Source: an uncultured Jannaschia sp.
Lineage (GTDB): Bacteria > Pseudomonadota > Alphaproteobacteria > Rhodobacterales > Rhodobacteraceae
Direction of reading: 5' to 3'
Assembly: GCF_947503795.1 (NCBI RefSeq)
Contig: NZ_CANNEZ010000002.1
Span: 62,001-126,000, forward strand
Length of the DNA stretch: 64,000 bases
Part shown: positions 20,681 to 36,792 of the stretch, in pieces
Position numbering within the stretch: position 1 is the first letter of the stretch
Layout: each line of letters opens with the position of its first letter
Made by a program: the position numbers and the translations under genes
Notes under the pieces: generated by a model
What the model was told of the DNA's origin: nothing
What the model saw: the letters and a program-made list of their open reading frames with translations, nothing else
The model's database searches: none

Positions 20681-20835
20681 TCGTCTCCCCTTCGCTCGGG
20701 CCGACGCTAGCGGGGCGTCCGGCGGCTGTCACGTCCGACATGCTAACATGCCAGTCCCTTGACAGGTCGGGTCCGGCGCGGTGACTGTCGCAGGGTCAAG
20801 GTCGCCCGGAAAGGGCGCCGATCTGGGAGGATCAC
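20681..20835. promoter_or_regulatory. Divergent promoter region of the sugar ABC transporter
   Basis: This 155-base spacer separates the divergent ATPase and binding-protein genes and holds the palindrome at 20737-20752. A binding-protein ribosome binding site (GGGAGG) lies at about 20825. The palindrome is about 57 bases from the ATPase start and 84 bases from the binding-protein start, a position suited to repressing both. Confidence 0.6.
20737..20752. promoter_or_regulatory. GntR-type operator candidate, site A
   Basis: GACATGCTAACATGCC is a near-perfect 16-base palindrome. Closely matching sites occur at 25097-25112, 32233-32248 and 36777-36792. The last overlaps the start of a GntR gene, so that protein is the likely ligand. 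Assignment is inference from repetition and placement. Confidence 0.7.
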
Positions 20836-22506
20836 ATGAAGCACCGCATCTACGAACACTTCCTGCGCACGGGTAAGCTCAATCGTCGCGCCATGCTGCA
20901 GGGCGCGGCCGCCACGGCCGGTCTCGCGGCGGGCGGCGCGCTGATGCCGAAGGGCGCCTTCGCCGACGCCCACGGCAACCTGCGCGCCGAGATCCTGCAG
21001 ATCCCGGGCGTCGGATCGGGCAGTCCGACGGATGCCGACTGGCAGCGCGTGGGCGAGATGTGCCTCGGGGCGACACGCGAAAGCGTGGCCGAGGGCGAGT
21101 TCGCGGGCGTCGAGCTGACCTTCATGGGGCTCAACAACCAGAACACGCACAACTTCCTGTTCCGCGGCTTCCTGAAGTCGTGGGAAGATTACACCGGGGC
21201 CACGATCAACTGGATCGACCTGGCACAGGCCGACTACAACGCGCGCCTGCAGCAGTCGATCGCGACCGGCACGGTCGATTTCGACATCATCGAGATGGGC
21301 GCGCCCTTCGAGGGCGACGTTCTGGGCCGCGGCATGGCCTCCGAGATGCCCCAATGGGTCGCCGACATCATCGACATGGACGATTACGTCGACTACCTGA
21401 AGGCCCCCGTCGGGACGTGGGACGGCAAGACCTACCGCGTGTCGATCGACGGCGACTGCCACACGATGGCCTACCGCCAGGACTACTACGACAACGCCGA
21501 GTTCGCCGAGGCCTGGGCGGCCGGGGCCGGCGAAGGTCCGTGGGCCCCGCCCGAGACCTGGGAGCAGGTCAACGCGCATTCGAAGTTCCTCGCCGGCAAG
21601 ACCGACCCGCTGACGGGCCTGCCCGCGCACGGCTTCCTCGACCCGCTCAAGGGTTGGGGCGGCTTCGGGTTCTACTTCCTCGAGGACCGCGCGACGCCCT
21701 ATGCCAAGCACCCCGACGACCCGGCCTGGCTGTTCGATCCCGAGACGATGACGCCGCGCGTCAACAACCCGGCCTTCGTGCAGGCGATCCAGGACGTGAT
21801 GGACCTGATCGCGACCGAAGGGGCCTACCCGGCCGACCAGATCAATGCCGATCCGGGCACGACCGCATTCCAGCAGTTCCTCGCCGGCACGGGTGCCGCG
21901 CTGACCTGGTGGGGCGATGTGGGTGCGGCGGCGCGGACTTCGGACACCTCGGTCGTGGGCGAGGTCGCGGCCTTCTCGATGAACCCGGCCGCCGAGCGCG
22001 TCTACAACTCGCAATCCGGCGAATGGGAGGAGGGCCGCAACGAAAGCCCGAACCTCGCCTATATCGGCTGGGGCGTCTACGTGATGGCCAAGACCGAGGA
22101 GGACGAGCTGAAGAACAAGGCGGCCTGGTCGGCAGCGGCGCATCTGGGCGGCAAGGACCTGTCGCTCTGGGCCTCGGCCTACCCGTCGGGGTTCCAGCCC
22201 TACCGCAACTCGCATTTCCAGTACGAGGAATGGGAAGCGGCGGGCTACGACCGCGCCTATGTCGAAGATTTCCTCGGCGCCAATCTCGACAGCTACAACC
22301 ACCCCAACGGCGCGATCGAGCCGCGCATCCCCGGCATCTTCCAGTACTACTCGGTCGCCGAGGACGAGCTGGCGAAGGGCTTCGCGGGCCAATACGGCTC
22401 GGCGCAGGAGACCGCGGACGCCATCGCCGCCGCATGGGAGGAGATCACCGACCAGATCGGCCGCGACAGCCAGATCGCGCTCTACAAGGCGTCGCTGGGA
22501 ATGTGA
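20836..22506 (+). CDS. Sugar ABC transporter substrate-binding protein, Tat-exported
   Basis: A 556-residue extracellular solute-binding protein family 1 member. The N-terminus has a twin-arginine signal (LNRRAMLQGAAATAGLAAGG) ending AFADA, so it is exported folded. Binding-protein features include FRGFLKSWEDYTGATINWI, IATGTVDFDIIEMGAPFEG and DGKTYRVSIDGDCHTMAYRQ. At 556 residues it is longer than the usual 420, in line with binding proteins for larger or polyhydroxylated sugars. It is followed by a strong rho-independent terminator, so the permeases 2.6 kb downstream need their own promoter. The ligand is unknown. Confidence 0.9.
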   Translation: MKHRIYEHFLRTGKLNRRAMLQGAAATAGLAAGGALMPKGAFADAHGNLRAEILQIPGVGSGSPTDADWQRVGEMCLGATRESVAEGEFAGVELTFMGLNNQNTHNFLFRGFLKSWEDYTGATINWIDLAQADYNARLQQSIATGTVDFDIIEMGAPFEGDVLGRGMASEMPQWVADIIDMDDYVDYLKAPVGTWDGKTYRVSIDGDCHTMAYRQDYYDNAEFAEAWAAGAGEGPWAPPETWEQVNAHSKFLAGKTDPLTGLPAHGFLDPLKGWGGFGFYFLEDRATPYAKHPDDPAWLFDPETMTPRVNNPAFVQAIQDVMDLIATEGAYPADQINADPGTTAFQQFLAGTGAALTWWGDVGAAARTSDTSVVGEVAAFSMNPAAERVYNSQSGEWEEGRNESPNLAYIGWGVYVMAKTEEDELKNKAAWSAAAHLGGKDLSLWASAYPSGFQPYRNSHFQYEEWEAAGYDRAYVEDFLGANLDSYNHPNGAIEPRIPGIFQYYSVAEDELAKGFAGQYGSAQETADAIAAAWEEITDQIGRDSQIALYKASLGM

Positions 22507-22524
22507 TCCGCACCGTCTGAGATC

Positions 22525-22557
22525 GGGGCGCGTCCGGCGATGGGCGCGCCCCTTTTT
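22525..22557 (+). terminator. Rho-independent terminator of the binding-protein gene
   Basis: Stem GGGGCGCG / CGCGCCCC with a 12-base loop followed immediately by TTTTT, 18 bases after the binding-protein stop codon. It isolates this highly expressed gene from those downstream. Confidence 0.88.
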
Positions 22558-22570
22558 CGTGGTGCCGGGC

Positions 22571-22607
22571 CCGGTCGGGCCGGGGCATCGAGCCCCGGCC
22601 CGACCGG
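22571..22607. repeat. Perfect 16-bp stem hairpin
   Basis: CCGGTCGGGCCGGGGC and its exact complement flank a 5-base loop (ATCGA). The 16-bp perfect stem sits just after the terminator and just before a copy of the dispersed intergenic repeat (22628-22653). It is far more stable than needed for termination and resembles the GC-rich hairpin halves of the other repeat copies. Confidence 0.75.
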
Positions 22608-22627
22608 CGAGGGTCTCCCCTCGCGCT

Positions 22628-22653
22628 CCCCGAGGTATTTGGGGCCAGAGGAC
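22628..22653 (+). repeat. Dispersed intergenic repeat core, copy 2
   Basis: CCCCGAGGTATTTGGGGCC followed by AGAGGA. Matches the cores at 13804-13855 (minus), 34247-34273 and 45725-45750, each in a spacer close to a gene start or end. Confidence 0.75.
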
Positions 22654-22718
22654 GGGGGCGCGATTGACAGCGGCGCATGTCGGGGGCCAGTTCGGGCCAG
22701 ATCCGAAAGGCCCCGCCC

Positions 22719-23828
22719 ATGCTGCCAGATGACATCCAGACGCAGGTCCTCGACCTTCTGCATCACCGCACCTCGCGGCTGGCCGATGGAGACCCGGTGG
22801 CCGAACCGATGGTCTCGACCTCGACGTTCCGGCTGGGCGACCAGCCCGCGCCCGACGCGATCTACGGGCGCTACGCCACGCCCACGGTACAGGCCTGCGA
22901 GGCGCGGCTGGCCGCGGTTGAGGGCGCGCCGAGCCTTCTTTTCGCGAGCGGAATGGCGGCCATCGCAGGCGTGATGCTGAGCGTGCTGAAGACCGGCGAC
23001 CGGGTGCTGGTGCCCGCCGACGGCTATTTCCACACGCGCGTTCTGGCCGGCGAGACGCTTGCGCCGCTGGGCGTCGAGATGATCACCGTGCCGACCCGCG
23101 AGATGCTCGGGGCGGATCTTTCGGGCGTGGCGCTCGTGCTGGTCGAGACGCCGTCGAACCCGGCGCTGGACCTGATCGACCTCGCCGCGCTCTCGGGCCG
23201 CTGCCAAGCGGCGGGCGCGCTTCTGGCCGTCGACAACACCTTCTGCACGGGGCTTCTGCAGCGACCGCTGGCGCTCGGCGCCGACATCACGCTCGCGTCG
23301 GACACCAAGGCCGCGGGCGGGCATAGCGACCTGATCCTCGGGCATGTCGCGACCGCCGATCCGGACCTGATGGAGCGGCTGGCCGCGACGCGCAAATTCA
23401 CCGGGGCGATCCCCGGTCCGTTCGAGGCCTGGATGCTCAGCCGCTCGCTCGAGACGCTGGAGCTCAGGCTCGACCGGATGTGCCGCAGCGCGCAGGCCGT
23501 GGCCGAGCGGCTGGCGTCGGACGACCGCGTTGCCGTGCGCTTCCCCGGCCTGTCCGACCACCCCGACCACGCACTCGCCCGGACGCAGATGCACGCGCCC
23601 GGCTTCGTCATCGGCGCGACCTTTCCCGACCGTGCCGCCGCCGATCGCTTCATCGCCTACGCCGGCTGCATCCTGCCCGCCACGAGCTTCGGCTCGACCC
23701 ATACCAGCGCCGACCGCCGCGCCCGCTGGGGCGATGCGGTGCCCGAGGGCTTCCTGCGGCTGTCCATCGGCATCGAACCGGAGGCGCCGCTGCTCTCCGC
23801 GATCGACCAGGGCCTCACAGCCGTCTGA
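22719..23828 (+). CDS. Cys/Met metabolism PLP-dependent enzyme (cystathionine gamma-lyase/synthase family)
   Basis: A 369-residue fold-type I PLP enzyme. The N-terminus shows PMVSTSTFRLGDQPAPDAIYGRYATPTVQACE and LLFASGMAAIAGVML, typical of gamma-family enzymes. The PLP lysine is in LASDTKAAGGHSDLILGHV, and ETPSNPALDLIDLAAL and AVDNTFCTG supply cofactor contacts. Members perform gamma-elimination or replacement on cystathionine, methionine or homoserine derivatives. AAAGG precedes the ATG at 22719. It lies between the binding protein and permease genes of a sugar transporter, an odd place, and is followed by a TauD/GBBH-like gene with which it may form a pair. Confidence 0.83.
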   Translation: MLPDDIQTQVLDLLHHRTSRLADGDPVAEPMVSTSTFRLGDQPAPDAIYGRYATPTVQACEARLAAVEGAPSLLFASGMAAIAGVMLSVLKTGDRVLVPADGYFHTRVLAGETLAPLGVEMITVPTREMLGADLSGVALVLVETPSNPALDLIDLAALSGRCQAAGALLAVDNTFCTGLLQRPLALGADITLASDTKAAGGHSDLILGHVATADPDLMERLAATRKFTGAIPGPFEAWMLSRSLETLELRLDRMCRSAQAVAERLASDDRVAVRFPGLSDHPDHALARTQMHAPGFVIGATFPDRAAADRFIAYAGCILPATSFGSTHTSADRRARWGDAVPEGFLRLSIGIEPEAPLLSAIDQGLTAV

Positions 23829-23894
23829 CGTCGCGGGCAGGCGAGACGCGGTCGGAATCGGGCGCCAGCAACGGGGGCACATCCCGGAGGCGAC

Positions 23895-25076
23895 ATGCGC
23901 GACGAGACCCTGCCCGATCTGCCCTACACGCCCGATTTCGAAACCTGGCCCGTCACCCATCGCCCCGTCGCCGCCCAAGCCGAGGGCGATGCGGTTCGCG
24001 TCATCTGGGCGGACGGTGCCGAAAGCGTCCACCTCGCCCGCCTCCTGCGTGAAAACAGCCCCGATGCCGACACGATCCACCCCCTCTCGCGCGAGTTGCT
24101 GATCTCGCCCACGGCGATCCCCGCCGACCTCTCGGTGCGGTCGGCATCGGTCGAAAACGGCATCCTCGGGGTCGTCTTCACCGACCGTCCCGACACCTGC
24201 CGCTACCATCCCGGCTGGCTGCGCGGCACCGCATGGCTGGGACAGGTGCCGGAGCCCGACCCGGCCGCGCCGATACTCTGGGACGCGACGCTGGCCGAGG
24301 TGCCGAGCTTCGACGGGCCCGCCGCCTTGGCCGACGACGCGACCTTCCTCGCCTGGCTGGAAGCGCTGGCGCACCATGGCGTCGCGCGCCTTCGGGGCCT
24401 GCCCGAGCGGGACGGGCTCCTCCTCGAGATCGCCGGTCGCATCGGCACGATCCGCGACAGCAATTTCGGCCGCGTCTTCACGTCGGCGATTCAGGACGAC
24501 CCGACCAGCAACGCCTATACCTCGCACGCCCTTCCGCCGCATACCGATCTTGCGAGCCGCGAATGCCCGCCGGGGCTGCAATTCCTCCATTGCCGCGAGA
24601 ACACGACGACCGGGGGTATGGGCACCTATGTTGATGGCTACCGGGTGGCCGAGGATATCCGCACCGAGGATCAGGAGCTCTTCGAGACGCTGACGACCCT
24701 CGACTGGACCTTCGGCAACCGCGCCCGCGACAGCGATTATCGCGCGACGGGGCCGGTGATCGCGCTGGACGCGCAGGGCGCCGTCCGCGAGATCCGCTAT
24801 ACCGTCTGGCTGCGCCAGCCCGTGGTCGCCCCGCTGGACGAGCAGCGCCGCGCCTACGAGAGCCTGCGCGCCTTCGCGGTCCGCGCCGAGGACCCGCGCT
24901 ACCGGATGGAGGTGCGCTACGCCGCGGGCGATCTCTTCGCCTTCGACAATCGCCGCGCGCTGCATGGGCGGACGGGCTACGACGCGGCGGGCGGGGCGCG
25001 CTTCATCGAAGGGGTCTATTCGGACCGCGACGAGCTCTGGTCGCGCATCCGGGTCCTGCGGCGGGACGCGCGATAA
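23895..25076 (+). CDS. Gamma-butyrobetaine hydroxylase-like Fe(II)/2-oxoglutarate dioxygenase
   Basis: A 393-residue protein with two parts: an N-terminal GBBH-like domain (residues about 25-110, DAVRVIWADGAESVHLARLL) and a TauD/TfdA catalytic domain. Iron ligands are in ALPPHTDLASRECPPGLQFL (His and Asp) and FDNRRALHGRTGY (distal His). The layout fits gamma-butyrobetaine dioxygenase, trimethyllysine dioxygenase and the phosphonate enzyme TmpA; the exact substrate, probably a quaternary amine, is not known. The cysteines that bind zinc in the N-terminal domain of human GBBH are not obvious. It follows the PLP enzyme by 66 bases and precedes the permeases by 31 bases. Confidence 0.82.
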   Translation: MRDETLPDLPYTPDFETWPVTHRPVAAQAEGDAVRVIWADGAESVHLARLLRENSPDADTIHPLSRELLISPTAIPADLSVRSASVENGILGVVFTDRPDTCRYHPGWLRGTAWLGQVPEPDPAAPILWDATLAEVPSFDGPAALADDATFLAWLEALAHHGVARLRGLPERDGLLLEIAGRIGTIRDSNFGRVFTSAIQDDPTSNAYTSHALPPHTDLASRECPPGLQFLHCRENTTTGGMGTYVDGYRVAEDIRTEDQELFETLTTLDWTFGNRARDSDYRATGPVIALDAQGAVREIRYTVWLRQPVVAPLDEQRRAYESLRAFAVRAEDPRYRMEVRYAAGDLFAFDNRRALHGRTGYDAAGGARFIEGVYSDRDELWSRIRVLRRDAR

Positions 25077-25096
25077 CGCTTCCCAACCGCCGGGCG

Positions 25097-25112
25097 GCGT
25101 GACTAACATGTC
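25097..25112. promoter_or_regulatory. GntR-type operator candidate, site D (half conserved)
   Basis: The right half CTAACATGTC matches the other sites exactly; the left half (GCGTGA) does not. The site overlaps the permease ATG at 25108. It may be a weak operator for the permease genes. Confidence 0.5.
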
Positions 25113-26214
25113 AGCAATGGCCGAGCAGCTTCACATCGTCACCGAAGACCGCATCACGCCTGCGCGGCGCGCGGTTGGACGCACCATGATCTGGGGCGGG
25201 CTGGCGCTGCTGGTGGCGGTGGGCGCGCTGCAATGGTTCGACCAGACCGGCCGGCTCGATCTCGGCTTCGAGAGCTGGCGTCCGACGCTCTACGCCTTCT
25301 GCCTCTTTGCGACGCTGCTGTGCTGGGCGCAGGTCGTGCTGCATGGCGAACAGGGCAAGCGCACGCTTTTCGTGCTGCCCGCGGCACTCTTCGTGGGCGC
25401 GCTGGTGATCTTCCCGCTGATCTTCGGCGTCGGCATCGCCCTCAGCGACTGGAACCTCGCATCGCCCGACGGGCGGCAGTTCAATGGGCTCGACAACGCC
25501 CGGCAGGCGATGGGCGACCCGTTCTATCTCAACGCGCTCTGGAACATGGTGCTCTACACGGCGGCGATCCTCGTGGAATACGTCATCGCCTTCGGCCTCG
25601 CGCTCCTCCTCAACGCCGAGATCCGGGCGCGTAAGTTCTTCCGCGTGGCGTTTCTCCTGCCCCTGATGCTCTCGCCCGTCGCTGTCTCGTGGATGGTCGG
25701 CAAGTCGATGTTCGAGCCGCGCTTCGGCCCGATGGCCCGCCTCGCCCGCGAGTTGGGATGGGAGACGCCCAGCTTCTTCGGCACCCCCGAGATCGCGCGC
25801 CTGATGATCATGGTCATGGATGCGTGGACCTTCATCCCCTTCATGATGATCATGCTGCTCGCGGGCCTCCAGGCCGTGCCGAAGGAGCTGATCGAGGCGG
25901 CCAAGGTCGACGGCGCATCGCCCTGGCGCCGCTTCTGGGAGGTGACGTTTCCCCTGATGCTGCCGGTGTCGATCACCGCGATCCTGATCCGCATCATCTT
26001 CAAGCTGAAGCTCGCCGACATCGTCATCAACATCACCTCCGGCGGGCCGGGCGGAGCGACCGACACCGTCACCAGCTTCATCTTCCGCGAATACCGCGAC
26101 CGCTCGAACGTGGGCTACGGGACGATGCTCGCGTTCCTCTACCTGATCGCGATCGTGATCTTCATGACTGTCCTGATGAAACTCACCGAACGCTGGACGA
26201 AGCCCCAGACATGA
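25108..26214 (+). CDS. Sugar ABC transporter permease (MalF/UgpA type)
   Basis: A 368-residue permease with about eight hydrophobic helices; two N-terminal ones (residues 20-75) precede the usual six-helix core. The EAA loop that docks on the ATPase is EAAKVDGASPWRRFWEVTF near residue 268. It pairs with the MalG-type permease, whose ATG overlaps its stop codon (ATGA, 26211-26214). The preferred start is ATG 25108; ATG 25117 is an alternative that would free the operator-like sequence from the coding region. Confidence 0.9.
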   Translation: MSAMAEQLHIVTEDRITPARRAVGRTMIWGGLALLVAVGALQWFDQTGRLDLGFESWRPTLYAFCLFATLLCWAQVVLHGEQGKRTLFVLPAALFVGALVIFPLIFGVGIALSDWNLASPDGRQFNGLDNARQAMGDPFYLNALWNMVLYTAAILVEYVIAFGLALLLNAEIRARKFFRVAFLLPLMLSPVAVSWMVGKSMFEPRFGPMARLARELGWETPSFFGTPEIARLMIMVMDAWTFIPFMMIMLLAGLQAVPKELIEAAKVDGASPWRRFWEVTFPLMLPVSITAILIRIIFKLKLADIVINITSGGPGGATDTVTSFIFREYRDRSNVGYGTMLAFLYLIAIVIFMTVLMKLTERWTKPQT

Positions 26215-27140
26215 CGGACGCGCCCGCCACCCAGATCTTCCACGACAGCGAGGCCGACCGCGCCTTCCGTCCGGGCTTCGTTCTGTCGAAGGTGGCGATC
26301 TACGCGCTGTTGATCGCCTGGGCGATCATCTGCCTCTTCCCGATCTACTGGACCATCACCACCAGCTTCAAAGCCGCGCCCGACGTGATGCAGGGCAACA
26401 TGATCCCCTATGTCGATTTCGAGCCCAAACGCCTCGGCTGGCGGGCGCTGGGCCTGTCGCCCGACACGATCGGCAGCGTCTCCACCGTGCGCGACGAGTT
26501 CATGCGCCGGTTCTGGAACTCGACGATCATCTCGGTCTCCGCCTCGCTGCTGGCCGTGATCCTCGGGGCCTGCGCGGCCTATGGCCTCTCGCGCTTCCAG
26601 TACCGCTTCGGCCCGATGCGCAACGGCGACATCTCGTTCTTCTTCCTCAGCCAGCTGATCCTGCCGCCGGTGGTCCTCGCGCTGCCGTTCCTCGTCCTCT
26701 ACCGCGAGCTCGACATGCTGGACAGCCGCATCGGCCTGATCCTGCTCTACACGCTGACGGTCCTCCCCATCGTCATCTGGATCATGCGCGACCAGTTCGG
26801 CTCGATCCCCACCGAGCTCGAGGAGGCCGCGATGGTCGACGGCCTCGGCATCTGGGGCGCGTTCCTGACCATCATCCTGCCCATCGCAGCCCCCGGCATG
26901 GTCGCAGCCTTCATCCTGTCGCTCGTGCTGACCTGGAACGAGTACTTCTTTGCAGCCCTCCTGACCTCGACGCACGCCAACACCCTTCCCGTGATGGTCG
27001 CCTCCCAAACCGGGTCGCAGGGCATCTCCTGGTGGTCGATGGCCGCGCTCAGCTTCGCGGCGATCCTGCCCCTGATCGTGATCGGCATCGTGCTGGAGAA
27101 ATACATCATCAAGGGCATGGCGGCGGGCGCGGTGAAGTAG
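26211..27140 (+). CDS. Sugar ABC transporter permease (MalG/UgpE type)
   Basis: A 309-residue permease with six hydrophobic helices, starting with a cytoplasmic segment and helix KVAIYALLIAWAIICLFPIY. The ATPase-docking EAA motif is ELEEAAMVDGLGIWGAFLT near residue 203. A periplasmic insertion near residues 65-95 (GNMIPYVDFEPKRLGWR) is longer than in MalG. It is translationally coupled to the MalF-type gene. The downstream spacer leads to a convergent Hint-domain gene. Confidence 0.91.
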   Translation: MTDAPATQIFHDSEADRAFRPGFVLSKVAIYALLIAWAIICLFPIYWTITTSFKAAPDVMQGNMIPYVDFEPKRLGWRALGLSPDTIGSVSTVRDEFMRRFWNSTIISVSASLLAVILGACAAYGLSRFQYRFGPMRNGDISFFFLSQLILPPVVLALPFLVLYRELDMLDSRIGLILLYTLTVLPIVIWIMRDQFGSIPTELEEAAMVDGLGIWGAFLTIILPIAAPGMVAAFILSLVLTWNEYFFAALLTSTHANTLPVMVASQTGSQGISWWSMAALSFAAILPLIVIGIVLEKYIIKGMAAGAVK

Positions 27141-27209
27141 CGCGCGCGAAGCGGAGAGGCGGCGCGGCCGCATAGACGTCGCCACCCGCCCCCTCGGACG
27201 GGAGCGTCG

Positions 27210-28244
27210 TCACGCGGCGACCGAGCGCGCGGAACCCGGCGGCGCCCACAGGGCCGCCAGCCGTCTCGCCGCCTGCATCGTCAGGCAGGGACGTGCGGGA
27301 TGCGCGTCCCCGACCATGGGCATCATCGCGTGCCGCAATGCCCGCCGCTGGGGTCGATCCAGGCCCCCGCGAACCATTGGTCCCGGAAGGAGCGATTCCG
27401 TCCAGCACCCCTCGGCGACGACGATGGTGTGGCGATCCAGCAGGAAGTGGTGCCAGGTGATCGACCGCCGGCCATGCATGAACCGGACCCGTCGTAGGCC
27501 CGTCAACGCCTCGGACGGCACGAACACCTCCGTATCGCTGAAGCCGTGGAGCTGGCCCGCCGATCCGGCGAGGATGCGGTGCTGCGGGGACACGATCAGG
27601 TCCCGCGACGGGCAACCGGGGCCCAGCGCGCCGGCGCGGATCAGCACCGGCGGCTTGCTTGGCTTCGGGCCGCGCAGCGGCGCGTTCGCGGCGTTGGTCC
27701 ACCGGATGGGCATGGCGCCGTGCTCGACGGTCGTCACCAGGTCGCCCGCCCGCAGCGTCTCGATGCGGCGCGGCCCGCATGGCGTCTCGATCCGCGTGCC
27801 GGTCGCGTAACACGGAATGGTGCCCCGGCTCGGCGCGCTCTGGGCCGAGTAGCTTGCACCGCCATCGGTCGTCTCGAATGTCTGGCCGCTCTTCAGGAAG
27901 CCGAGGCTCTGGCTGGTCGCCCCCGCGGCCGGGCCGGATGTCGGCGAGACAGTCTTCCCCTCGAACGATACGAACTGCACGACGGCACCCGTATCGTCGA
28001 TGAGGGCAATGGATTCGCTCGCGCCGTACTCGATCCCGCCCGGCGTGAATTCGTCGAACGAGTAGATGTCCTGACCATGTTGGGTGGCGTCCAGCGACGG
28101 GAACGCCATCGTGGCCTTCAGCACGCCGGAGGCATCGTAGATGGCGATGGAATAGCCGGAGACATCCGTCCCGGCGGGAGCGGCGACCTCGAAAAAATTC
28201 GGAGGCGCGTCCTGATATCCGACTTCGGAGAAATACACGGGCAT
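27210..28244 (-). CDS. Hint-domain protein with lamin-tail-like N-terminal domain
   Basis: A 344-residue protein without a classical signal peptide. Residues 1-120 (YFSEVGYQDAPPNFFEVAAP, DVSGYSIAIYDASG) resemble a lamin-tail/LTD beta-sandwich. From residue about 145 comes a Hint (hedgehog/intein) domain: CYATGTRIETPCGPRRIETL, DLIVSPQHRILAG and FMHGRRSITWHHFLLDRH, with the nucleophilic Cys and the conserved His. Rhodobacteraceae encode many such stand-alone Hint proteins, thought to self-cleave or attach during secretion, often by type I export. No RTX repeats are visible here. The function is unknown and the gene stands alone. Confidence 0.82.
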   Translation of the reverse strand: MPVYFSEVGYQDAPPNFFEVAAPAGTDVSGYSIAIYDASGVLKATMAFPSLDATQHGQDIYSFDEFTPGGIEYGASESIALIDDTGAVVQFVSFEGKTVSPTSGPAAGATSQSLGFLKSGQTFETTDGGASYSAQSAPSRGTIPCYATGTRIETPCGPRRIETLRAGDLVTTVEHGAMPIRWTNAANAPLRGPKPSKPPVLIRAGALGPGCPSRDLIVSPQHRILAGSAGQLHGFSDTEVFVPSEALTGLRRVRFMHGRRSITWHHFLLDRHTIVVAEGCWTESLLPGPMVRGGLDRPQRRALRHAMMPMVGDAHPARPCLTMQAARRLAALWAPPGSARSVAA

Positions 28245-29359: not shown

Positions 29360-30646
29360 ATGACAGATCTCGCCCCCCGTCCCTGGCTCACCGCCCCCGC
29401 CGCCGCCCGCATCGACGCCCTTCGCCTGCCCGCCGATCCCCGCGCCGCGGTCGAGGCGCTGGCGGCCGAGACGCGCGCGATCCACGACGAACGCTGCTTC
29501 AACCTGAACCCCGCGACCAACGTGATGAACCCGCGGGCCGAGGCGCTGCTGGCTTCGGGCCTCGGCAGCCGTCCGTCGCTGGGCCAGCCGGGCGACAAGT
29601 ACGAGACCGGCCTCGAGGCCATCGAACAGATCGAGGTGATGGCCGCCCGCCTCGCCGCCCGCGTGTTCGGCGCCACATATGTCGAGCCGCGCGTCCCCTC
29701 GGGCGCGCTCGCCAACCTGATGTCCTTCATGGCGCTGGCACGGCCCGGCGACGCCATCATCGCGCCCCCGCCCGCCATCGGCGGCCATGTCACCCACCAC
29801 GCGGCGGGTTGCGCCGGGCTCTACGGCCTGACGACGCACCCGGCCCCGGTCGATGCCGCGCGTTACACCGTCGATGTGGACGCCCTCCGCGCGCTGGCCC
29901 ACGAGGTCCGCCCGAAGATCATCACCATCGGCGCCTCGCTCAACCTCCACCCCCATCCCGTCGCCGATCTGCGCGCCATCGCCGACGAGGTCGGTGCCGT
30001 CCTGATGTTCGACGCGGCCCATCTCTGCGGGGTGATCGCGGGCGGCGCCTGGCCGAACCCGCTCGACCAGGGCGCGCATCTGATGACGATGAGCACCTAC
30101 AAGTCGCTCGGCGGCCCGGCCGGCGGCCTGATCGTCACCAACGAGGCCGAGATCGCCCGCCGCCTCGACGCAGTCGCCTTTCCAGGCCTGACGGCCAATT
30201 TCGACGTGGCCAAGACGGCGGCTCTGGCCGTCACGCTGCAGGACTGGATCGACCACGGCGCGGCATACGCCGCTCATATGGTCGCCTTGGCACAAGCCCT
30301 GGCCGAGGCCGCGCGCGCCGAGGGCCTACCCGTCTACGGCACCACCGAAAGCCATCAGTTCGCGATCGAGGCCGCGCCCTTCGGTGGCGGCCAGACCATG
30401 GCCCGGCGCCTTGCCCGCACGGGGTTTCTCGCCTGCGGCATCGGCCTGCCATCGCCCGAAGTGGAGGGCGACATGAACGGTCTCCGCATCGGCACGCCTG
30501 AACTGGCCCGCCGCGGCGTGGAATCGTCTGACGCCCCCGCGATCATGGCGATCCTCGCCCGTGCGCTTCAGAGCGACCCCGAGACCGTCGCCCCCGAGAC
30601 CGCCGCCCTCCGCGCCCGTTTCACGGAATTGCGCTACGCCGGCTGA
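29360..30646 (+). CDS. Serine hydroxymethyltransferase-like PLP enzyme
   Basis: A 428-residue fold-type I PLP enzyme of the SHMT family. N-terminal FNLNPATNVMNPRAEALLAS and GDKYETGLEAIEQIE mirror SHMT, HLCGVIAGGAWPNPLDQGAH contains the ring-stacking region, and the PLP lysine is in MSTYKSLGGPAGG. Housekeeping SHMT reads TTTHKTLRGPRGG there, so this is a divergent paralogue, perhaps a 2-methylserine hydroxymethyltransferase or a beta-hydroxy amino acid aldolase. A dedicated divergent LysR regulator supports a catabolic role. The start could also be ATG 29351. Confidence 0.8.
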   Translation: MTDLAPRPWLTAPAAARIDALRLPADPRAAVEALAAETRAIHDERCFNLNPATNVMNPRAEALLASGLGSRPSLGQPGDKYETGLEAIEQIEVMAARLAARVFGATYVEPRVPSGALANLMSFMALARPGDAIIAPPPAIGGHVTHHAAGCAGLYGLTTHPAPVDAARYTVDVDALRALAHEVRPKIITIGASLNLHPHPVADLRAIADEVGAVLMFDAAHLCGVIAGGAWPNPLDQGAHLMTMSTYKSLGGPAGGLIVTNEAEIARRLDAVAFPGLTANFDVAKTAALAVTLQDWIDHGAAYAAHMVALAQALAEAARAEGLPVYGTTESHQFAIEAAPFGGGQTMARRLARTGFLACGIGLPSPEVEGDMNGLRIGTPELARRGVESSDAPAIMAILARALQSDPETVAPETAALRARFTELRYAG

Positions 30647-30654
30647 CCCGCCGT

Positions 30655-30690
30655 CTTCGATGCTCCTGAAATATGCGCGTGGGGTGCAGG
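30655..30690. repeat. Intergenic repeat, AAATATGC-type variant
   Basis: CTTCGATGCTCCTGAAATATGC after the SHMT-like gene matches CTTCGATGTTCCAGAAATATGC at 33308-33329, and more weakly TTTGCTCAAGAAATATGCC at 53157-53175. Each follows a gene end. These seem to be a second branch of the dispersed repeat family. Confidence 0.6.
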
Positions 30691-30714
30691 GCGTCCGCCA
30701 GCCCCCCGCCGCCG

Positions 30715-32190
30715 TCAGAGCGCATGCGCGATCGCCTTGGTCGTCTCGTAGAGGTCGCGCCAGAGCGGATAGGCCCGCGCATAGGCGTCCTGCGCCACCG
30801 GCTCCACCAGGCGCTCCACCGGATTCCACGCCGAGATGTCGCCCGGCACGCAGGCCCCCACCGCCACGCCCGCCAGGAAGGCGTCGCCCAGCGCCGCCCC
30901 CGTCGTCCGCCGACACAGGTGCTGCGTCACGCCGGACAGATCCGAGGTCGCCTGCAGCCAGACGTCGTTCTTCACCCCGCCGCCCACGGCCAGCACGCGG
31001 CCCGGATCGGCCCCACCCGCGCGGAACGTCTCGACCACATGCGCCGTCCCCATCGCCACGCCTTCGCAGACGGCGCGGAACATCGCGCCCCGGTCATGGG
31101 TCAGGTCCAGCCCGAAGAACGCGCCGCGCGCGTCGGGGTCCTGGATCGGCGTCCGCTCGCCCGAGAAATAGGGCAGGCACAGGAGGCCCAGCGCCCCCGG
31201 CGGGACGGCCCGCGCCTCGGCGGTCAGCACGGCGAAGGCGTCGTCCCCGAGCTCCCGCGCGAACACGTCCCGGAACCAGCGCGTGAGCGTCCCGCTCGTG
31301 CCCTGCCCGGCCATGGCGCACCACGTCCCCGGCCAGAGCCACGGCGCCGACCAGAGCGAGGCGTCCAGAAGACGCGCGGACGTGACCTGGATCATGAACA
31401 TGCTCGAGCCGTACATGACCATCATGTCGCCCGCGTCCCGCGTGCCGACGCTGACCGCCTCGGCCGCCGCGTCGATGGTGCCAGCGGTCACCGGCGTGCC
31501 CTCGGCCAGCCCCGTGGCCCGCGCCGCCGCTGCGGTGACGTGACCGGCGATCTCCGTGGTCCAGATCAGCCGGGGCAGCATCGCGGGGTCGACGATCCCG
31601 TCGCACATCGAGTCGGACCACGCCTGCGCCCGCGCGTCGTAGAGCGGCGTCCACTGTCCTGCCGAATGGTGGTCCAGCACCCGCTCCCCCGTCAGGCGGC
31701 GTACGAGGAAGGTCGTGCAGGTCTCGATCGCCGTGACCTCGGCCCAGAGCTCCGGACGGTTCCGCCGCAGCCAGAGCACCTTTGGCCCGACCGATTGCGA
31801 GGTCAGCACGTTGCCCGACGCCTCCAGCATTGCGTCGGCCCCGAACCGTTCCGTCAGCTCCGCGATCTCGGCGCCCGCCCGCGCGTCCACACCGTAAAGG
31901 ATCGCGGGCGCCAGCGGGTCGCCACCCTTGTCCACCGGCAGCACGCAGGGCCCGATCCCGCTGACCGCAACGGCCGCCACCTCCGCGGCATCCAGCCCGG
32001 CCAGCACCTCGCGGGAAAGAGCCGCGAACCCGTCCCACCAGACGGTCTCGGCGTCGTGCTCGGCCCATCCGGGGCGTGGCACGTCCATCCGGTGCGCCCG
32101 GACCGCCTCGGCCACGACCGCGCCGTCGGGCGTGGCCAGCACGGCCTTGCCCTCGAACGTCCCGATATCCACGCCAAGAAGATAGGTCAT
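30715..32190 (-). CDS. FGGY-family carbohydrate kinase (xylulokinase-like)
   Basis: A 491-residue FGGY kinase. The N-terminal phosphate loop is LLGVDIGTFEGKAVL; the hinge and ATP region include MVMYGSSMFMIQVTS, LPYFSGERTPIQDPDARGAF and VLAVGGGVKNDVWLQ. Family members phosphorylate xylulose, ribulose, fuculose and related ketoses. It is divergent from the aldo/keto reductase with an operator-like palindrome between, so it belongs to the same sugar regulon. The substrate cannot be set by sequence alone. Confidence 0.88.
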   Translation of the reverse strand: MTYLLGVDIGTFEGKAVLATPDGAVVAEAVRAHRMDVPRPGWAEHDAETVWWDGFAALSREVLAGLDAAEVAAVAVSGIGPCVLPVDKGGDPLAPAILYGVDARAGAEIAELTERFGADAMLEASGNVLTSQSVGPKVLWLRRNRPELWAEVTAIETCTTFLVRRLTGERVLDHHSAGQWTPLYDARAQAWSDSMCDGIVDPAMLPRLIWTTEIAGHVTAAAARATGLAEGTPVTAGTIDAAAEAVSVGTRDAGDMMVMYGSSMFMIQVTSARLLDASLWSAPWLWPGTWCAMAGQGTSGTLTRWFRDVFARELGDDAFAVLTAEARAVPPGALGLLCLPYFSGERTPIQDPDARGAFFGLDLTHDRGAMFRAVCEGVAMGTAHVVETFRAGGADPGRVLAVGGGVKNDVWLQATSDLSGVTQHLCRRTTGAALGDAFLAGVAVGACVPGDISAWNPVERLVEPVAQDAYARAYPLWRDLYETTKAIAHAL

Positions 32191-32232
32191 CGCGCGCTCC
32201 CCCTCGCCGGGGACGCTAGCGCCCGCGCTCGG

Positions 32233-32248
32233 GACATTCTAGCATGTC
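32233..32248. promoter_or_regulatory. GntR-type operator candidate, site C
   Basis: GACATTCTAGCATGTC is a 16-base palindrome with a single mismatched pair, lying between the divergent FGGY kinase (start 32190) and aldo/keto reductase (start 32270). It shares its CTAGCATG core with the site at 36777-36792. Confidence 0.7.
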
Positions 32249-32269
32249 AGCCGATCAGGGGAGCACCGG

Positions 32270-33295
32270 ATGACACTCAAGACGCGACACTGGGACCGGC
32301 TGGGCAATGGCGGGCTGACCTTCACCAAACTTGGCTTCGGCACGGCCCCCTTGGGCAATCTCTACCGCGCGATCACCGACGACGAGGCCGATGCCATCCT
32401 CGACCGGGCCTGGGCGGCGGGCGTGCGCTACTACGACACCGCGCCGCTCTATGGGCTCGGCCTGTCGGAGACGCGGCTGAACCGCTTCCTGCGCGACAAG
32501 CCCCGCGACGACTACGTGCTCTCGACCAAGGTCGGCCGCTACCTTCTCCCGGCCACGCCCGAAACGCGCGACGGTCACGGCAAGTGGTTCGAGGTGCCGA
32601 ACCGAAACGAGGTCTACGACTACAGCTACGACGGCGTCATGCGTTCGCTGGAAAGCTCGTTCGAGCGGCTGGGTGTCGACCGGATCGACATCCTCTTCGC
32701 CCATGACATTGACGTCCCGAACCAGGGCAGCCGCGCGAACGTGGACGCCAAGGTCGCCCAGCTCCAGGCGGGCGGCTACCACGCCCTCGAGCAGATGCGG
32801 AAGGATGGCGCGATCACCGCATTTGGTGCCGGCGTCAACGAATGGGAGGTCTGCCAGCAGCTGGCCGAGAGTGGTGACTACGACCTCTTCCTGCTGGCGG
32901 GGCGCTATACGCTTCTGGAGCAGGAGGCGCTGACCTCCTTCCTGCCGCTCTGCGAGGCGCGGGGCATCGGCATCGTGACCGGCGGGCCCTACAACTCGGG
33001 GATCCTCGCCACCGGCCCCAAGCCCGGCGCATTCTACAATTACGAGGTGGCCGAGAAGCCGGTCCTCGACCGCGTCGCCGCCATCGAGCGGGTCTGCCAG
33101 AGCCACGGCGTCAGGCTCGTGGACGCCGCCTTCCAGTTCCCGCTCCTCCATCCCTGTACCGTCAGCGTGGTGCCCGGTGGACAGGGTGTAGCCGAGATGG
33201 ACGGCAATCTCGCGGCCGCCCGGGCCGAGATCCCAGCGGCGCTCTGGTCCGACCTCAAGTCCGAGGGCCTGATGCGCGAGGACGCGCCGACGTGA
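32270..33295 (+). CDS. Aldo/keto reductase, L-fucose (D-threo-aldose) 1-dehydrogenase-like
   Basis: A 341-residue TIM-barrel NAD(P)-dependent oxidoreductase. The catalytic tetrad is visible: Asp and Tyr in YYDTAPLYGLGLSE, Lys in LSTKVGRYL and His in ILFAHDID. The start (RLGNGGLTFTKLGFGTAPLGN) and loop GKWFEVPNRNEVYDYSYDGV are typical of the L-fucose dehydrogenase group, which oxidises L-fucose, D-arabinose or L-xylose to the lactone. The amidohydrolase after it would open that lactone. The operator-like palindrome lies upstream; GGGGAG precedes the ATG. Confidence 0.87.
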   Translation: MTLKTRHWDRLGNGGLTFTKLGFGTAPLGNLYRAITDDEADAILDRAWAAGVRYYDTAPLYGLGLSETRLNRFLRDKPRDDYVLSTKVGRYLLPATPETRDGHGKWFEVPNRNEVYDYSYDGVMRSLESSFERLGVDRIDILFAHDIDVPNQGSRANVDAKVAQLQAGGYHALEQMRKDGAITAFGAGVNEWEVCQQLAESGDYDLFLLAGRYTLLEQEALTSFLPLCEARGIGIVTGGPYNSGILATGPKPGAFYNYEVAEKPVLDRVAAIERVCQSHGVRLVDAAFQFPLLHPCTVSVVPGGQGVAEMDGNLAAARAEIPAALWSDLKSEGLMREDAPT

Positions 33296-33307
33296 ACCGC
33301 CATCCCC

Positions 33308-33362
33308 TTCGATGTTCCAGAAATATGCCGGGGGGTCCGGGGGGCTGGCCCCCCGGCCTCCT
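33308..33362. repeat. Intergenic repeat with GC hairpin between reductase and lactonase genes
   Basis: CTTCGATGTTCCAGAAATATGC is followed by a G/C hairpin (CCGGGGGGTCCGGGGGGCTGG then CCCCCCGG). It lies inside an operon, directly ahead of the amidohydrolase start at 33378. Confidence 0.65.
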
Positions 33363-33377
33363 CCGCTGCGCGCGCCC

Positions 33378-34199
33378 ATGAGAGTCGACGCGCATCACCA
33401 CCTCTGGCAGCCGCTCCGCGGCGACCACGACTGGATGCCCGAGGGCCACCCGATCCTCGACCGTCCTTACGCGCCCGCCGACCTTGCCCCGCATTTGGCC
33501 ACGCGGGCCATCGACCGCACCGTCCTCGTCCAGGCGGCCGCCACGACGCATGAGACCGAGTACATGCTGGGCCTCGCCGACGCGACGGACTGGATCGGCG
33601 GTGTCGTCGGCTGGATCGATTTCGAGGATGCGGACCAGCGCGCCACGCTCGCGCGCCTCGCCCGCCACCCGAAATTCCTCGGGGTGCGGCCCATGATCCA
33701 GGATATCCCCGACGACGACTGGATGCTCCGCGCGGATATCGCCTGGGGGTTCGAGGCGGTTGCCGCGCTGGACCTCACCTTCGACGCGCTGGGCTTCCCG
33801 CGCCACCTCGCCAACTTCCACACCATCCTGACGCGCCATCCGATGCGCTGCGTGATCGACCACGCCATGAAGCCCGACATCGCGGGTAGCGCTTTCGACG
33901 ACTGGGCCGCGGGCATGGCCCGGCTGGCGCGCGACACAACGGCCTGCGTCAAGCTGTCGGGCCTCGTGACCGAAGCCGCCGAGGACTGGAACGTGGAGGA
34001 CCTGCGCCCCTATGCGCACCACCTCTTCGAGACCTTCGGCCCGGATCGGATCATGTGGGGCAGTGACTGGCCCGTCTGCCGCCTGCGCGCCGAATACGGG
34101 GTGTGGCTCGAGGCGGCGGAGGCGCTGACGGCGGATCTTTCGCCTGCGGAGCGCGCCGCGATCTTCGGCGGAACGGCGGCGCGGTTCTACCGGCTGTGA
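33378..34199 (+). CDS. Amidohydrolase, L-fuconolactonase-like
   Basis: A 273-residue metal-dependent amidohydrolase-fold enzyme. The first metal motif is MRVDAHHHLWQP; RTVLVQAAATTHETEYML, GFPRHLANF, CVIDHAMKPDI, CVKLSGLVTEA and the final Asp in IMWGSDWPVCRLRAEYG follow in family order. This subgroup hydrolyses sugar lactones such as L-fucono-1,5-lactone and L-rhamnono-lactone. It directly follows the L-fucose-dehydrogenase-like gene, so the two together would turn the sugar into its acid. A sugar-acid dehydratase is not in view. Confidence 0.85.
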   Translation: MRVDAHHHLWQPLRGDHDWMPEGHPILDRPYAPADLAPHLATRAIDRTVLVQAAATTHETEYMLGLADATDWIGGVVGWIDFEDADQRATLARLARHPKFLGVRPMIQDIPDDDWMLRADIAWGFEAVAALDLTFDALGFPRHLANFHTILTRHPMRCVIDHAMKPDIAGSAFDDWAAGMARLARDTTACVKLSGLVTEAAEDWNVEDLRPYAHHLFETFGPDRIMWGSDWPVCRLRAEYGVWLEAAEALTADLSPAERAAIFGGTAARFYRL

Positions 34200-34206
34200 A
34201 GGCGTG

Positions 34207-34273
34207 GGGGGGGGGCTCTGCCCCCCGCCGCCCTCCGGGCGACTCCCCCCGAGGTATTTCAGGCCAGAGGACG
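34207..34273 (+). repeat. Dispersed intergenic repeat, full two-part copy
   Basis: The hairpin GGGGGCTCTGCCCCCC (about 34212-34227) is followed by CCCCGAGGTATTTCAGGCC and AGAGGACGAGG. It has the same two parts and order as the copy at 13804-13855 (minus strand). It lies between the convergent lactonase and kinase genes. Confidence 0.75.
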
Positions 34274-34277
34274 AGGC

Positions 34278-35063
34278 TCAGCGCGGTGTGGAGACATGCC
34301 GCGCGGCATGGGCTTGGGCGGCGCCGAGTGCGTCTTCCAGCGACACGCCCGCGTCCAGCGCCGCCGAGAGCGCGCCGCAGAACGCATCGCCCGCACCGTG
34401 GCTCGAGACCACCTCGACCGCCCGGGCCGGCATCTCCGTCACGACGTCGCCCCGGTGCAGCGCCAGCCCATCGGCGCCCTTGGTCACGACCGTCGCCCAC
34501 GCGCCGAAGGCCGTCGCCCCCATCTGCGCCGCCTCGACCCGGTTCACGACCAGCACGTCGACCCGCGCCATCAGCGTGGCGTCCACCCCCCGCGCGGGCG
34601 CCGCGTTCAGGATCAGCGTCGCGCTCGGCGGCAGCGCGTGGGCCAGCGCGAGGTTCGCGGCCGCGGGCACTTCGTTCTGGATCAACGCGATGGTCACGTC
34701 TGCGGGCAACTCGCCCGGCATCGCGGCCGCGTTCGCCCCCGTGACGACGACCGCTCCGTATTCGCCCGTGGCGGTCTCGATGGCCACCGACATGCCCGAC
34801 GCCCCCGCCACCCGCGCGACGCGGTCCCGGTCCACGCCCGCCTCGTCCAGCACGGCCAGCATCCGTGCGCCCGGATCGTCCGACCCGACCGCGCCCGCGA
34901 ACGCCACCCGCGCGCCGCAGGCCGCCGCCGCCACGGCCTGATTGCCGCCCTTGCCGCCGAAGCGGTAATCGACGTCCTGGCCGGGTAGCGTCTCATCGAG
35001 CGCGGGCAGCCGGGCGGCCCGGACCACCACGTCCCAATGCAGCGATCCGAGGACGAGGATCAT
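34278..35063 (-). CDS. PfkB-family sugar kinase (ribokinase-like), second copy
   Basis: A 261-residue PfkB kinase, shorter than the ribokinase at 16954-17868. Motifs: VDYRFGGKGGNQAVAAAACG near residue 31, IALIQNEVPAAANLA, VLVVNRVEAAQMG, and the catalytic EVVSSHGAGDAFCGAL near 215. The usual TTGAGD triad reads SHGAGD, a change shared by some family members. It follows the TIM-barrel isomerase by 9 bases and the GntR gene, suggesting that isomerase and kinase act in sequence on the same sugar. Confidence 0.84.
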   Translation of the reverse strand: MILVLGSLHWDVVVRAARLPALDETLPGQDVDYRFGGKGGNQAVAAAACGARVAFAGAVGSDDPGARMLAVLDEAGVDRDRVARVAGASGMSVAIETATGEYGAVVVTGANAAAMPGELPADVTIALIQNEVPAAANLALAHALPPSATLILNAAPARGVDATLMARVDVLVVNRVEAAQMGATAFGAWATVVTKGADGLALHRGDVVTEMPARAVEVVSSHGAGDAFCGALSAALDAGVSLEDALGAAQAHAARHVSTPR

Positions 35064-35072
35064 GCGCCCCGC

Positions 35073-36050
35073 TCACGCACCGAAGAGCGCCCGCGCCACG
35101 ATCCGCTGCGACGTGGCCCCGTCCTGCCGCGCGATAGCGTCCCGCAACTCGGGCAGCGCGCCGATCTCGCCCGCGAGCGTGCGCAGCCGCTCGACCAGCG
35201 CGAGGTTCGTGCGCGCCTCCTCGACCGGGTTCAGCCCGCCATGGTCGGGGAAGGTGTCGAAATAGATCGCGCCGTCATAGCCGATCCGCTCCAGTTCCAC
35301 GAAGAGCTCGATCGTCGCCACGGGATGCACCGTCCCCACCATCAGCCCGTCGTCGCGCTTGCCGTAGCCGTCGTTCAGATGCACGCCCAGCAGGCGCGAA
35401 TGCCGCGCGATCAGGTGGGCGGCATGGGCCGGCATCTCGTCGGCATAGAGGACATGGGCGAAGTCGAGCGTGACGCCGAGGTTCGACCGATCCGCCTCGC
35501 GCACGCCCAGAAGCGTCGTGCCCACATCGGGCATCAGCGCGTAGGCGCGCGGCTCGTTCGGCTTGTATTCGATGGCGACGTCCATCCCCGGGTCGTGATC
35601 GGCGACGGCCTGCATCGCGGCGATCGTGTCGTCCCACATGCGACCATACTCGCCCTGGAACGCGTAATCGAACCCGTCCTGACCCATCCAGAGCGTCATC
35701 ACCGTTCCGCCCAGCGCCCGGCAGGCATCCATGCCGCGCTTCGTCAGGTCGACGGCCTTGGCGCGCAGTCCCGCATCCGGGTTGGTGAATGCCCCGATCA
35801 TGAAGCCCGGCTCGGTGTAGTAGCGCATCGCCACACCGTTCAGCGTCATGCCCGCATCGCCCAGCATCGCGCCCAGCGTCTCGGGTGTCTGGCCTTCGAA
35901 ATGGTCGGGATAGTTGAGGTCGGCGGTGTCGAGCCCGCCGACCTGCCCCGCCGCGGCGATCATGCCCGCGATGCCCCCGCCCAGATCGCCCGCCATCGGC
36001 TTGAACGCGTTGAGCCGCGCGGCATAGCGCGGGCGGTTCGGAATGGTCAT
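35073..36050 (-). CDS. Sugar isomerase/epimerase, TIM-barrel (xylose-isomerase-like)
   Basis: A 325-residue TIM barrel of the AP-endonuclease-2/xylose-isomerase-like family. Likely metal ligands are in VAIEYKPNEPRAY (Glu), LGVTLDFAHVLYADEMP (Asp, His), LLGVHLNDGYGKRDDGL (His, Asp) and IYFDTFPDH (Asp). Such proteins interconvert ketoses and aldoses or epimerise them. Its ATG overlaps the GntR stop codon by four bases and the ribokinase-like gene follows at once. The substrate is presumably the sugar of the surrounding regulon. Confidence 0.83.
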   Translation of the reverse strand: MTIPNRPRYAARLNAFKPMAGDLGGGIAGMIAAAGQVGGLDTADLNYPDHFEGQTPETLGAMLGDAGMTLNGVAMRYYTEPGFMIGAFTNPDAGLRAKAVDLTKRGMDACRALGGTVMTLWMGQDGFDYAFQGEYGRMWDDTIAAMQAVADHDPGMDVAIEYKPNEPRAYALMPDVGTTLLGVREADRSNLGVTLDFAHVLYADEMPAHAAHLIARHSRLLGVHLNDGYGKRDDGLMVGTVHPVATIELFVELERIGYDGAIYFDTFPDHGGLNPVEEARTNLALVERLRTLAGEIGALPELRDAIARQDGATSQRIVARALFGA

Positions 36051-36781
36051 GGGCGGTCCACTTGCGAAGGGGTCGGGTCGGTCGAGAAGAGGTCGGGCCT
36101 TGCGGCTTCCAGCGGGGTCAGGAAGGTCATCAGCTGCGCGAGGTGGTGCCGCATCGCCGCGCGGGCGGCGGCCCCGTCGCGCGCAGCCAGCGCCGCGACG
36201 ATGGCGCGATGCTCGGCCAGCGTCTCGGCCACGCGGTCGCCCATCGGCAGGATCAGGCGGCGGGCGCGGTCGACGTGGACCCAGGCCGTGTCGGACACGC
36301 GGGCCAGCCGCTGGAAGCCCGTGAAGTCGAGCAGCATCCGGTGCATCTCGCCGTCGAGCGCGTAGAAGCCCGGAAAATCGCCATCCTCGACCATCACGCC
36401 CTGCAGGCGCAGGTTCCGGCGCAGGTCGGTCAGTTGCGCGTCGGTGATCCGGGGGGCGAGGTGGTCGATGGCGGCCAGCTCGATCGCCTCGCGCAGGAAC
36501 GCGCCCTCGCGGATCTCGGCCATCGAGAGGCGGGCGACGAAGCTGCCGGCCTGGGGGACGACATCGACCAGCGCTTCGGTCGCGAGCCGGGTGACCGCCT
36601 CGGAGACGGGCGAGCGCGAGACGCCCAGCATGCCACAGATCTCCTCCTTGCGGAGCGCGGCGCCGGGATCGACGCGAAGCTCGACGATCGCCTCGCGGAG
36701 CGCCAGATAGGTGCGCCGCGCGAGCGTGCCCTCGTAGCTGTCGAGGGGGCGGAGCGTGATCGTGGGGGCATCGGCCGACAT
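36047..36781 (-). CDS. GntR-family (FadR subfamily) regulator of the sugar genes
   Basis: A 244-residue regulator. The N-terminal winged helix (residues about 20-85) includes TYLALREAIVELRVDPGAAL and EEICGMLGVSRSPVSEAVTR; the C-terminal FCD domain is all-alpha, with likely metal or ligand residues in LDGEMHRMLLDFTG, ETLAEHRAIVAAL and AAMRHHLAQLM. A palindrome identical in type to three others in the sugar regulon overlaps its own start codon, so it probably represses itself and the transport and catabolic genes until a sugar-acid inducer appears. It heads an operon with the isomerase and kinase. The identity of the inducer is unknown. Confidence 0.88.
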   Translation of the reverse strand: MSADAPTITLRPLDSYEGTLARRTYLALREAIVELRVDPGAALRKEEICGMLGVSRSPVSEAVTRLATEALVDVVPQAGSFVARLSMAEIREGAFLREAIELAAIDHLAPRITDAQLTDLRRNLRLQGVMVEDGDFPGFYALDGEMHRMLLDFTGFQRLARVSDTAWVHVDRARRLILPMGDRVAETLAEHRAIVAALAARDGAAARAAMRHHLAQLMTFLTPLEAARPDLFSTDPTPSQVDRP

Positions 36782-36792
36782 GCTAGCATGCT
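36777..36792. promoter_or_regulatory. GntR-type operator candidate, site B (autoregulatory)
   Basis: GACATGCTAGCATGCT has a perfect 12-base palindromic core CATGCTAGCATG. It overlaps the GntR start codon (36779-36781), so a bound repressor would block transcription or leaderless initiation. Best conserved of the four sites. Confidence 0.72.

Follow-up and report, generated by a model that had tools for sequence, protein, structure and literature searches.

The FCD-type (FadR subfamily) GntR regulators combine a helix-turn-helix (HTH) domain with an FCD domain, and the operator type of the subfamily is TNGTNNNACNA. Here we analyze a regulator of this kind, and the palindrome that we assign to it, in a 64,000-nucleotide stretch of DNA from an uncultured Jannaschia sp. 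(contig NZ_CANNEZ010000002.1, positions 62,001 to 126,000 of the forward strand; the whole stretch is referred to as the window, and positions are counted from its first letter). On our reading, to which we give a probability of about 78%, the FCD-type GntR protein encoded at 36047-36781 (gntR, minus strand) uses the palindrome as its operator and through it governs a regulon for a fucose-type sugar. The protein carries both features of the subfamily, an N-terminal GntR HTH (PF00392, 51.3 bits) and a C-terminal FCD domain (PF07729, 90.9 bits), each over its cut-off. Protein Data Bank (PDB) entries 3sxy and 3fms, both of which we take to be TM0439, were among the matches listed. Residues D142, H146, H190 and H212 (alignment numbering), presumably the metal site of the FCD domain, were invariant in 22 of 22 aligned GntR sequences (alignment A2, comprising 21 relatives and the window). 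The operator differs from that of the subfamily in having CATG half-sites around a YTAR core.

Sugar systems of a similar kind have been described. In the available part of its text, PMC5507952 reports that Rhodobacteraceae bin08 has the oxidative L-fucose pathway in full, along with an ATP-binding cassette (ABC) system, and the legend to its Figure 3 states that predicted FucR binding sites in L-fucose loci are displayed; the family and motif of FucR and the loci that carry sites are not named in that part. The portions available of PMC11199699 and PMC6336799 describe such enzyme classes for L-fucose and D-arabinose; in route 3, the non-phosphorylating L-fucose pathway, these are a mutarotase, a 1-dehydrogenase, a lactonase, a dehydratase, an L-2-keto-3-deoxyfuconate (L-KDF) dehydrogenase and a hydrolase. 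Homologues of these classes recur here, with the difference that they are split over two contigs and accompanied by extra isomerase-like and kinase genes, and that relatives have, adjoining gntR, a dehydratase of UxaA-family or enolase type. A description of the operator motif was not found in the literature, in searches that included the operator core strings, with the qualification that the supplement of PMC5507952 may overlap with it; the available parts of PMC9007349 and PMC10203303 held nothing bearing on the motif.

Three full copies of the palindrome, to which no strand is assigned, are present in the window. Operator 1 (20737..20752, GACATGCTAACATGCC, 22.0 bits) lies between divergent genes for a MalK/UgpC-type ABC ATPase (malK, 19634..20680, minus strand) and a presumed substrate-binding protein (sbp, 20836..22506, plus strand). 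Operator 3 (32233..32248, GACATTCTAGCATGTC, 25.1 bits) separates the divergent genes for an FGGY sugar kinase (fggy, 30715..32190, minus strand; XylB-like, below cut-off) and an aldo/keto reductase (akr, 32270..33295, plus strand). Operator 4 (36777..36792, 24.7 bits) reads GACATGCTAGCATGCT on the forward and AGCATGCTAGCATGTC on the minus strand, its positions 12-14 being the gntR start codon. These gene placements, first stated in an initial annotation made from the letters of the window, agree with its gene annotation. The initial annotation had counted four palindromic sites near the pattern GACATGYTARCATGNC; the three above stand, with 0, 1 and 1 mismatches, respectively, whereas the fourth, at 25097-25112, scored -3.2 bits and ranked 81st in the window.

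At up to three mismatches, GACATGYTARCATGNC gave 10 matches in the window, whereas 100 shuffles gave 2.22 on average and never more than 7 (a palindrome counting on both strands). When the whole genome (3,463,450 bases in four contigs) was searched at up to two mismatches, it returned the same three palindromes and two one-strand matches, both at two mismatches. With the broader consensus drawn from the relatives, RRCATKYTARMATGYY, there were exactly three palindromes at 0 mismatches, none at one and 16 places at two; the backward-pattern control gave 12 matches at up to two. A scoring matrix built from 31 relatives' sites (17 distinct), with the window excluded, ranked operators 3, 4 and 1 first, second and third in the window, the next-best match reaching 14.1 bits, and found zero sites of at least 16 bits in one simulated 3.46-Mb sequence. 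Strong copies in this genome are confined to the sugar locus; the scatter that would have spoken against the initial proposal is not seen. Among 394 family genomes, exact GACATGYTARCATGNC occurred three times, own genome included; position 1 of the relatives' operators is mostly A, not G, and the family consensus is AACATGYTARCATGTT.

To obtain relatives, GTDB genomes were scanned with the GntR protein, giving 41 loci (numbered with the prefix L). For counts at gntR 38 were kept, L044-L046 being left out (31-32% identity). The region searched in each ran from 200 bases upstream to 20 bases downstream of the gntR start given by BLAST, of which just 21 bases were searchable in L034; seven of the 38 with a best match at five or more mismatches (L014, L017, L030, L032, L034, L038 and L042) were omitted from the matrix. 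The comparison of upstream regions of orthologues, suggested at the outset, bore the operator out: AACATGYTARCATGTT was found at up to three mismatches before gntR in 28 of 38 relatives, compared with a mean of 0.12 and a maximum of one for 60 permuted palindromes. This control matters, since AACATGYTARCATGTT had been picked after inspecting the window and these loci.

We then counted as regulon positions those with an operator of at least 15 bits not more than 250 bases upstream of a gene start in the relatives. The operator stood before gntR in 31/36 cases (by construction), before uxaA in 21/22, btpA in 14/15 and akr in 15/21, and before sbp in 3/3, fucD in 2/2, malK in 3/6, malF in 2/8, sdr in 1/6 and m42 in 1/16. 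At this threshold it was found before none of the starts of lac, fggy and fucU (0/16 each), xi (0/11), malG (0/10), sis (0/8), pfkB2 (0/7), fah and pfkB1 (0/5 each) or the creatininase-family gene (0/2). The counts are not independent, because uxaA shares the gntR operator, btpA shares the akr operator, and the three sbp loci are closely alike. By computation, then, the motif is specific and conserved, and its copies occupy first-gene positions, at the heads of operons. The proposal that the dispersed genes would form one GntR-controlled regulon is supported by this confinement, conservation and placement, in a form with three operators and a decayed fourth. In L011 (6815) and L018 (8426) the operator stands before an enolase-family (fucD-like) gene, and the uxaA-gntR arrangement is absent in the stretch examined.

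At gntR, promoter, operator and start codon form one compact element. A gntR operator of at least 15 bits occurs in 32 relatives, of which 26 have an in-frame start codon at operator positions 12-14 (ATG in 25, GTG in L030; the exceptions are L012, L035, L037, L039, L040 and L041), and the window has ATG there. In 23 of the 32, TTGACA (at least 5/6) lies 15-18, mostly 16, bases upstream of a -10-like TAACAT, a count of 0-1 being obtained at ten control offsets, so that the promoter in relatives is mostly TTGACA-16-TAACAT. The promoter-like element of the window (36788..36816, minus strand) is TTGCCG-17-TAGCAT, and its -10 overlaps operator 4. The compound pattern TTGACAN{15,17}TRRCATKYTARNATG, which the window's own promoter would not match, gave nine matches in 149 family genomes and none when run backward; all nine lay directly upstream of a gntR orthologue (46-70% identity), and seven of the nine sequences were new with respect to the earlier loci. 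Since the operator overlaps the gntR promoter and contains the start codon, a leaderless, autoregulated gntR mRNA is implied by the sequence. An extra operator-like site of 19.8 bits lies within the gntR coding sequence at L018:10326 and L022:413.

The gene content points to a locus that imports and oxidizes L-fucose or a like-configured sugar (D-arabinose, L-galactose), without proving it. In our judgement L-fucose itself is somewhat favored, a like-configured sugar or a mixture being a serious but lesser prospect. The classes expected for the first steps are a FucU/RbsD-type mutarotase (fucU, 17861..18307, minus strand), the aldo/keto reductase and a lactonase-like amidohydrolase (lac, 33312..34199, plus strand). 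The best-scoring solved structures for the reductase, which is likely an aldose 1-dehydrogenase, are L-galactose dehydrogenases; none of its NCBIfam matches reached the cut-off. Beside gntR, relatives carry a UxaA-family or an enolase-family protein and, in some, also SDR and FAH proteins. From its N-terminal sequence we take the enolase-family protein to be L-fuconate dehydratase; in NCBIfam it matched related dehydratases only, below cut-off. Lower-pathway homologues in the genome of the window, lying within 20 kb on contig C1 outside the window, are UxaA-family (57% identity to the relatives' genes), SDR (58%), FAH (59%) and IlvD-type genes. A second sugar-acid cluster, L056 (G000:C1:1155000-1174999), comprises UxaA-family, enolase-family, SDR, IlvD and FAH proteins, with a TRAP-like transporter recognized by eye.

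One alternative keeps the operator and the regulator and supposes that the physiological sugar is not L-fucose; it overlaps the wider form of our explanation, and we regard it as a substantial possibility that nevertheless falls short of an even chance. The same promiscuous enzymes might handle D-arabinose or L-galactose, for example, or the isomerase-like protein and the kinases might process a second sugar. In favor of this alternative, a characterized aldo/keto reductase acts on D-arabinose, L-fucose and L-galactose (PMC6336799, in the part available). Gene content is also on its side: a xylose-isomerase-like TIM-barrel protein (xi, 35073..36050, minus strand, codirectional with and overlapping gntR), the FGGY kinase and two PfkB ribokinase-like kinases (pfkB1, 16954..17868, and pfkB2, 34278..35063, both minus strand) are in the locus, and BtpA, M42 and HxlB-like SIS proteins are added in relatives. 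However, in some relatives the FAH hydrolase (NF053535; 437.6 and 406.8 bits, the cut-off being 500) and the SDR protein stand beside the regulator, which fits deoxyhexose route III, and FucU is retained. That a single sugar is served, as initially proposed, we can only infer, because the oxidative pathway has no need of the isomerase-like protein or of the three sugar kinases also encoded in the locus. Apiose, considered in connection with the isomerase-like protein, was dropped because no result bore on it.

The fourth site of the initial annotation raises the question of how many operators are at work. Letters of 25097-25112 compared by eye with GACATGYTARCATGNC differ at five positions, and as a full operator this site was rejected on its score. 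The reading that suits it best is that of the left half of a degenerate operator spanning 25105-25120 (feature 25104..25120, plus strand) over the start of the gene for a MalF-type permease (malF, 25108..26214, plus strand, start approximate), with TAACAT, a possible -10, kept and the right half altered by a 1-nt insertion and other changes. L023 and L029 have a full operator over the malF start (25.2 and 25.1 bits, respectively); set against them, CTAACATGT is preserved in the window, and the GTTAGC of L029 corresponds to GTCAGCA. The idea that the malF half-site also functions, so that the operators at work would number four, draws on this retention of CTAACATGT where two relatives have full operators, and seems unlikely to us given the low score and rank of the site and the insertion in its right half. 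We prefer to see it as a decayed operator whose TAACAT half may persist as a -10 box. Between sbp and malF lie two intervening genes and a terminator-like hairpin with a T tail (22525..22552, plus strand; such matches were not more numerous than in shuffles), so that malF would need its own promoter. The two genes, for a cystathionine gamma-lyase and a TauD/gamma-butyrobetaine-hydroxylase-like protein (22677-25076), have no evident role here, and the binding-protein and permease genes are nearer each other in those relatives where both are present.

A sigma-70 scan of 19600-37800 gave no promoter over threshold, and promoters were therefore judged by conservation. On the malK side of operator 1 there is a promoter-like element (20704..20732, minus strand, GTGACA-17-TAGCGT) whose -35 begins 4 nt past the operator. 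A comparable -35/-10 pair was present in all 4 relatives looked at, of which three closely resemble one another, with 0/200 shuffles reaching the mean; scored 4-15 nt past the operator, the pair follows it in 5/5 loci including the window. On the sbp side a -35-like TTGACA (20759..20764, plus strand) begins 6 nt past the operator, and CTTGACAGG lies beside or overlaps the operator, as it also does in L010, L024, L036 and L047. In the direction of fggy or btpA a weaker promoter pair was seen in 8/15 loci. We also tried the operator itself as a -10 with a matching -35 (at least 5/6), and rejected it for akr (0/14), btpA (0/14) and uxaA (0/13). In three alike loci (L010:13667-13690, L024:18651-18674 and L036:18626-18649) the space between malK and sbp contains two operators with an 8-base overlap, so that CATG-like and YTAR blocks alternate.

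We propose that a GntR dimer would bind these operators and, most likely when the inducing sugar or sugar acid is absent, repress gntR-xi-pfkB2, the operon to which its gene belongs, as well as the transcripts diverging from operator 3 (fggy and akr-lac) and from operator 1 (malK and sbp); fucU and pfkB1 are presumably transcribed behind malK. Because the operator at gntR covers the -10 box and the start codon, bound GntR would block RNA polymerase directly. At malK and sbp it would act just upstream of a -35-like element, and repression would be relieved by the sugar or sugar acid bound in the FCD pocket. The position of operator 1 beyond the -35-like elements would also suit a regulator that activates malK and sbp and represses over the gntR -10, or one that is wholly an activator. 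We consider such activating or dual control quite improbable, since the operator over the gntR -10 and start codon is in a repressor position and known FCD regulators are mostly repressors. That the sites resemble each other by chance, or as a repeated element unrelated to regulation, is very unlikely: the sites are short, but their specificity in the genome, their matrix ranking, their conservation at like positions in relatives, their operon-head placement and the compound-pattern search all argue against it.

Several observations weigh against control of a fucose-type regulon by GntR repression. Promoter evidence is uneven: besides the result of the sigma-70 scan and the placement of operator 1 upstream of its -35-like elements, the sbp direction is without a canonical -10 (promoter pair in 0/5 loci), the pair for fggy was not found in the window, the akr direction has a pair in 1/15 loci and none in the window, and the -35 of the window's own gntR promoter matches at just 4/6 positions. 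A strong operator is absent at 6/21 akr and 3/6 malK starts, and the 3/3 at sbp come from the closely alike loci. The lower-pathway cluster elsewhere in the genome has no operator (best score 11.9 bits). As regards the sugar, the lactonase and mutarotase matches are below curated cut-offs (201 bits against 400 and 87.5 bits, to L-fucose mutarotase, against 141, respectively), and the oxidative pathway offers no role for the isomerase-like protein, the FGGY kinase or either PfkB kinase.

The remaining genes of the locus include one for a MalG-type permease (malG, 26220..27140, plus strand, start approximate) and one for a GDSL hydrolase (18999..19637, minus strand) that would belong to the regulon by position only. 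The presumed binding protein (556 aa) is assigned by its place beside transporter genes, here and in relatives; it had no match in Pfam, NCBIfam or the PDB (PDB search at E <= 0.1), and an AlphaFold2 model from eight sequences was not used (mean pLDDT 34.4). In a 745-aa protein at 28409-30646 the C-terminal half is serine-hydroxymethyltransferase-like, and the long N-terminal part has no Pfam match.

In Escherichia coli, the sgcQ/sgcX operon, for which function and substrate are not known, encodes proteins of the BtpA/SgcQ and M42 families together with a phosphotransferase system (PTS) and a different regulator. Similarly, in many relatives (L006-L039) the operon opposite akr is headed by BtpA/SgcQ and M42 genes under the operator, the btpA start lying behind it in 14/15; the L039 protein is over the cut-off of TIGR00259, 'BtpA/SgcQ family'. 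In L028 btpA was not found at its usual place and m42 adjoins the operator, fitting the sole case counted for m42. The window differs in that neither gene occurs in the interval from operator 3 to fggy, and its genome had no match to either family, while control genomes showed both. The pair is thus dispensable. A link through the regulon between the BtpA/SgcQ-M42/SgcX pair and the import and catabolism of a fucose-type sugar is a tentative suggestion, more doubtful than not. After fggy, some relatives have an HxlB-like SIS gene (eight starts) or a creatininase-family gene (two).

A sugar regulon under a GntR/FCD protein is already known in kind, and this one is real but ordinary; the parts that deserve to be followed are the single compact element of promoter, operator and start codon and the BtpA/SgcQ-M42 link. 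For a regulator present in Rhodobacterales and Hoeflea, the analysis provides a usable operator model, and it connects a transporter whose binding protein is otherwise unmatched with what would be a fucose-type sugar. The design at gntR is economical, one 16-bp palindrome overlapping the -10 box and holding what would be a leaderless start codon. Finally, the unexplained BtpA/SgcQ-M42 pair is placed in a defined sugar regulon, a link that, if true, would offer a class of substrates on which the pair could be tested.

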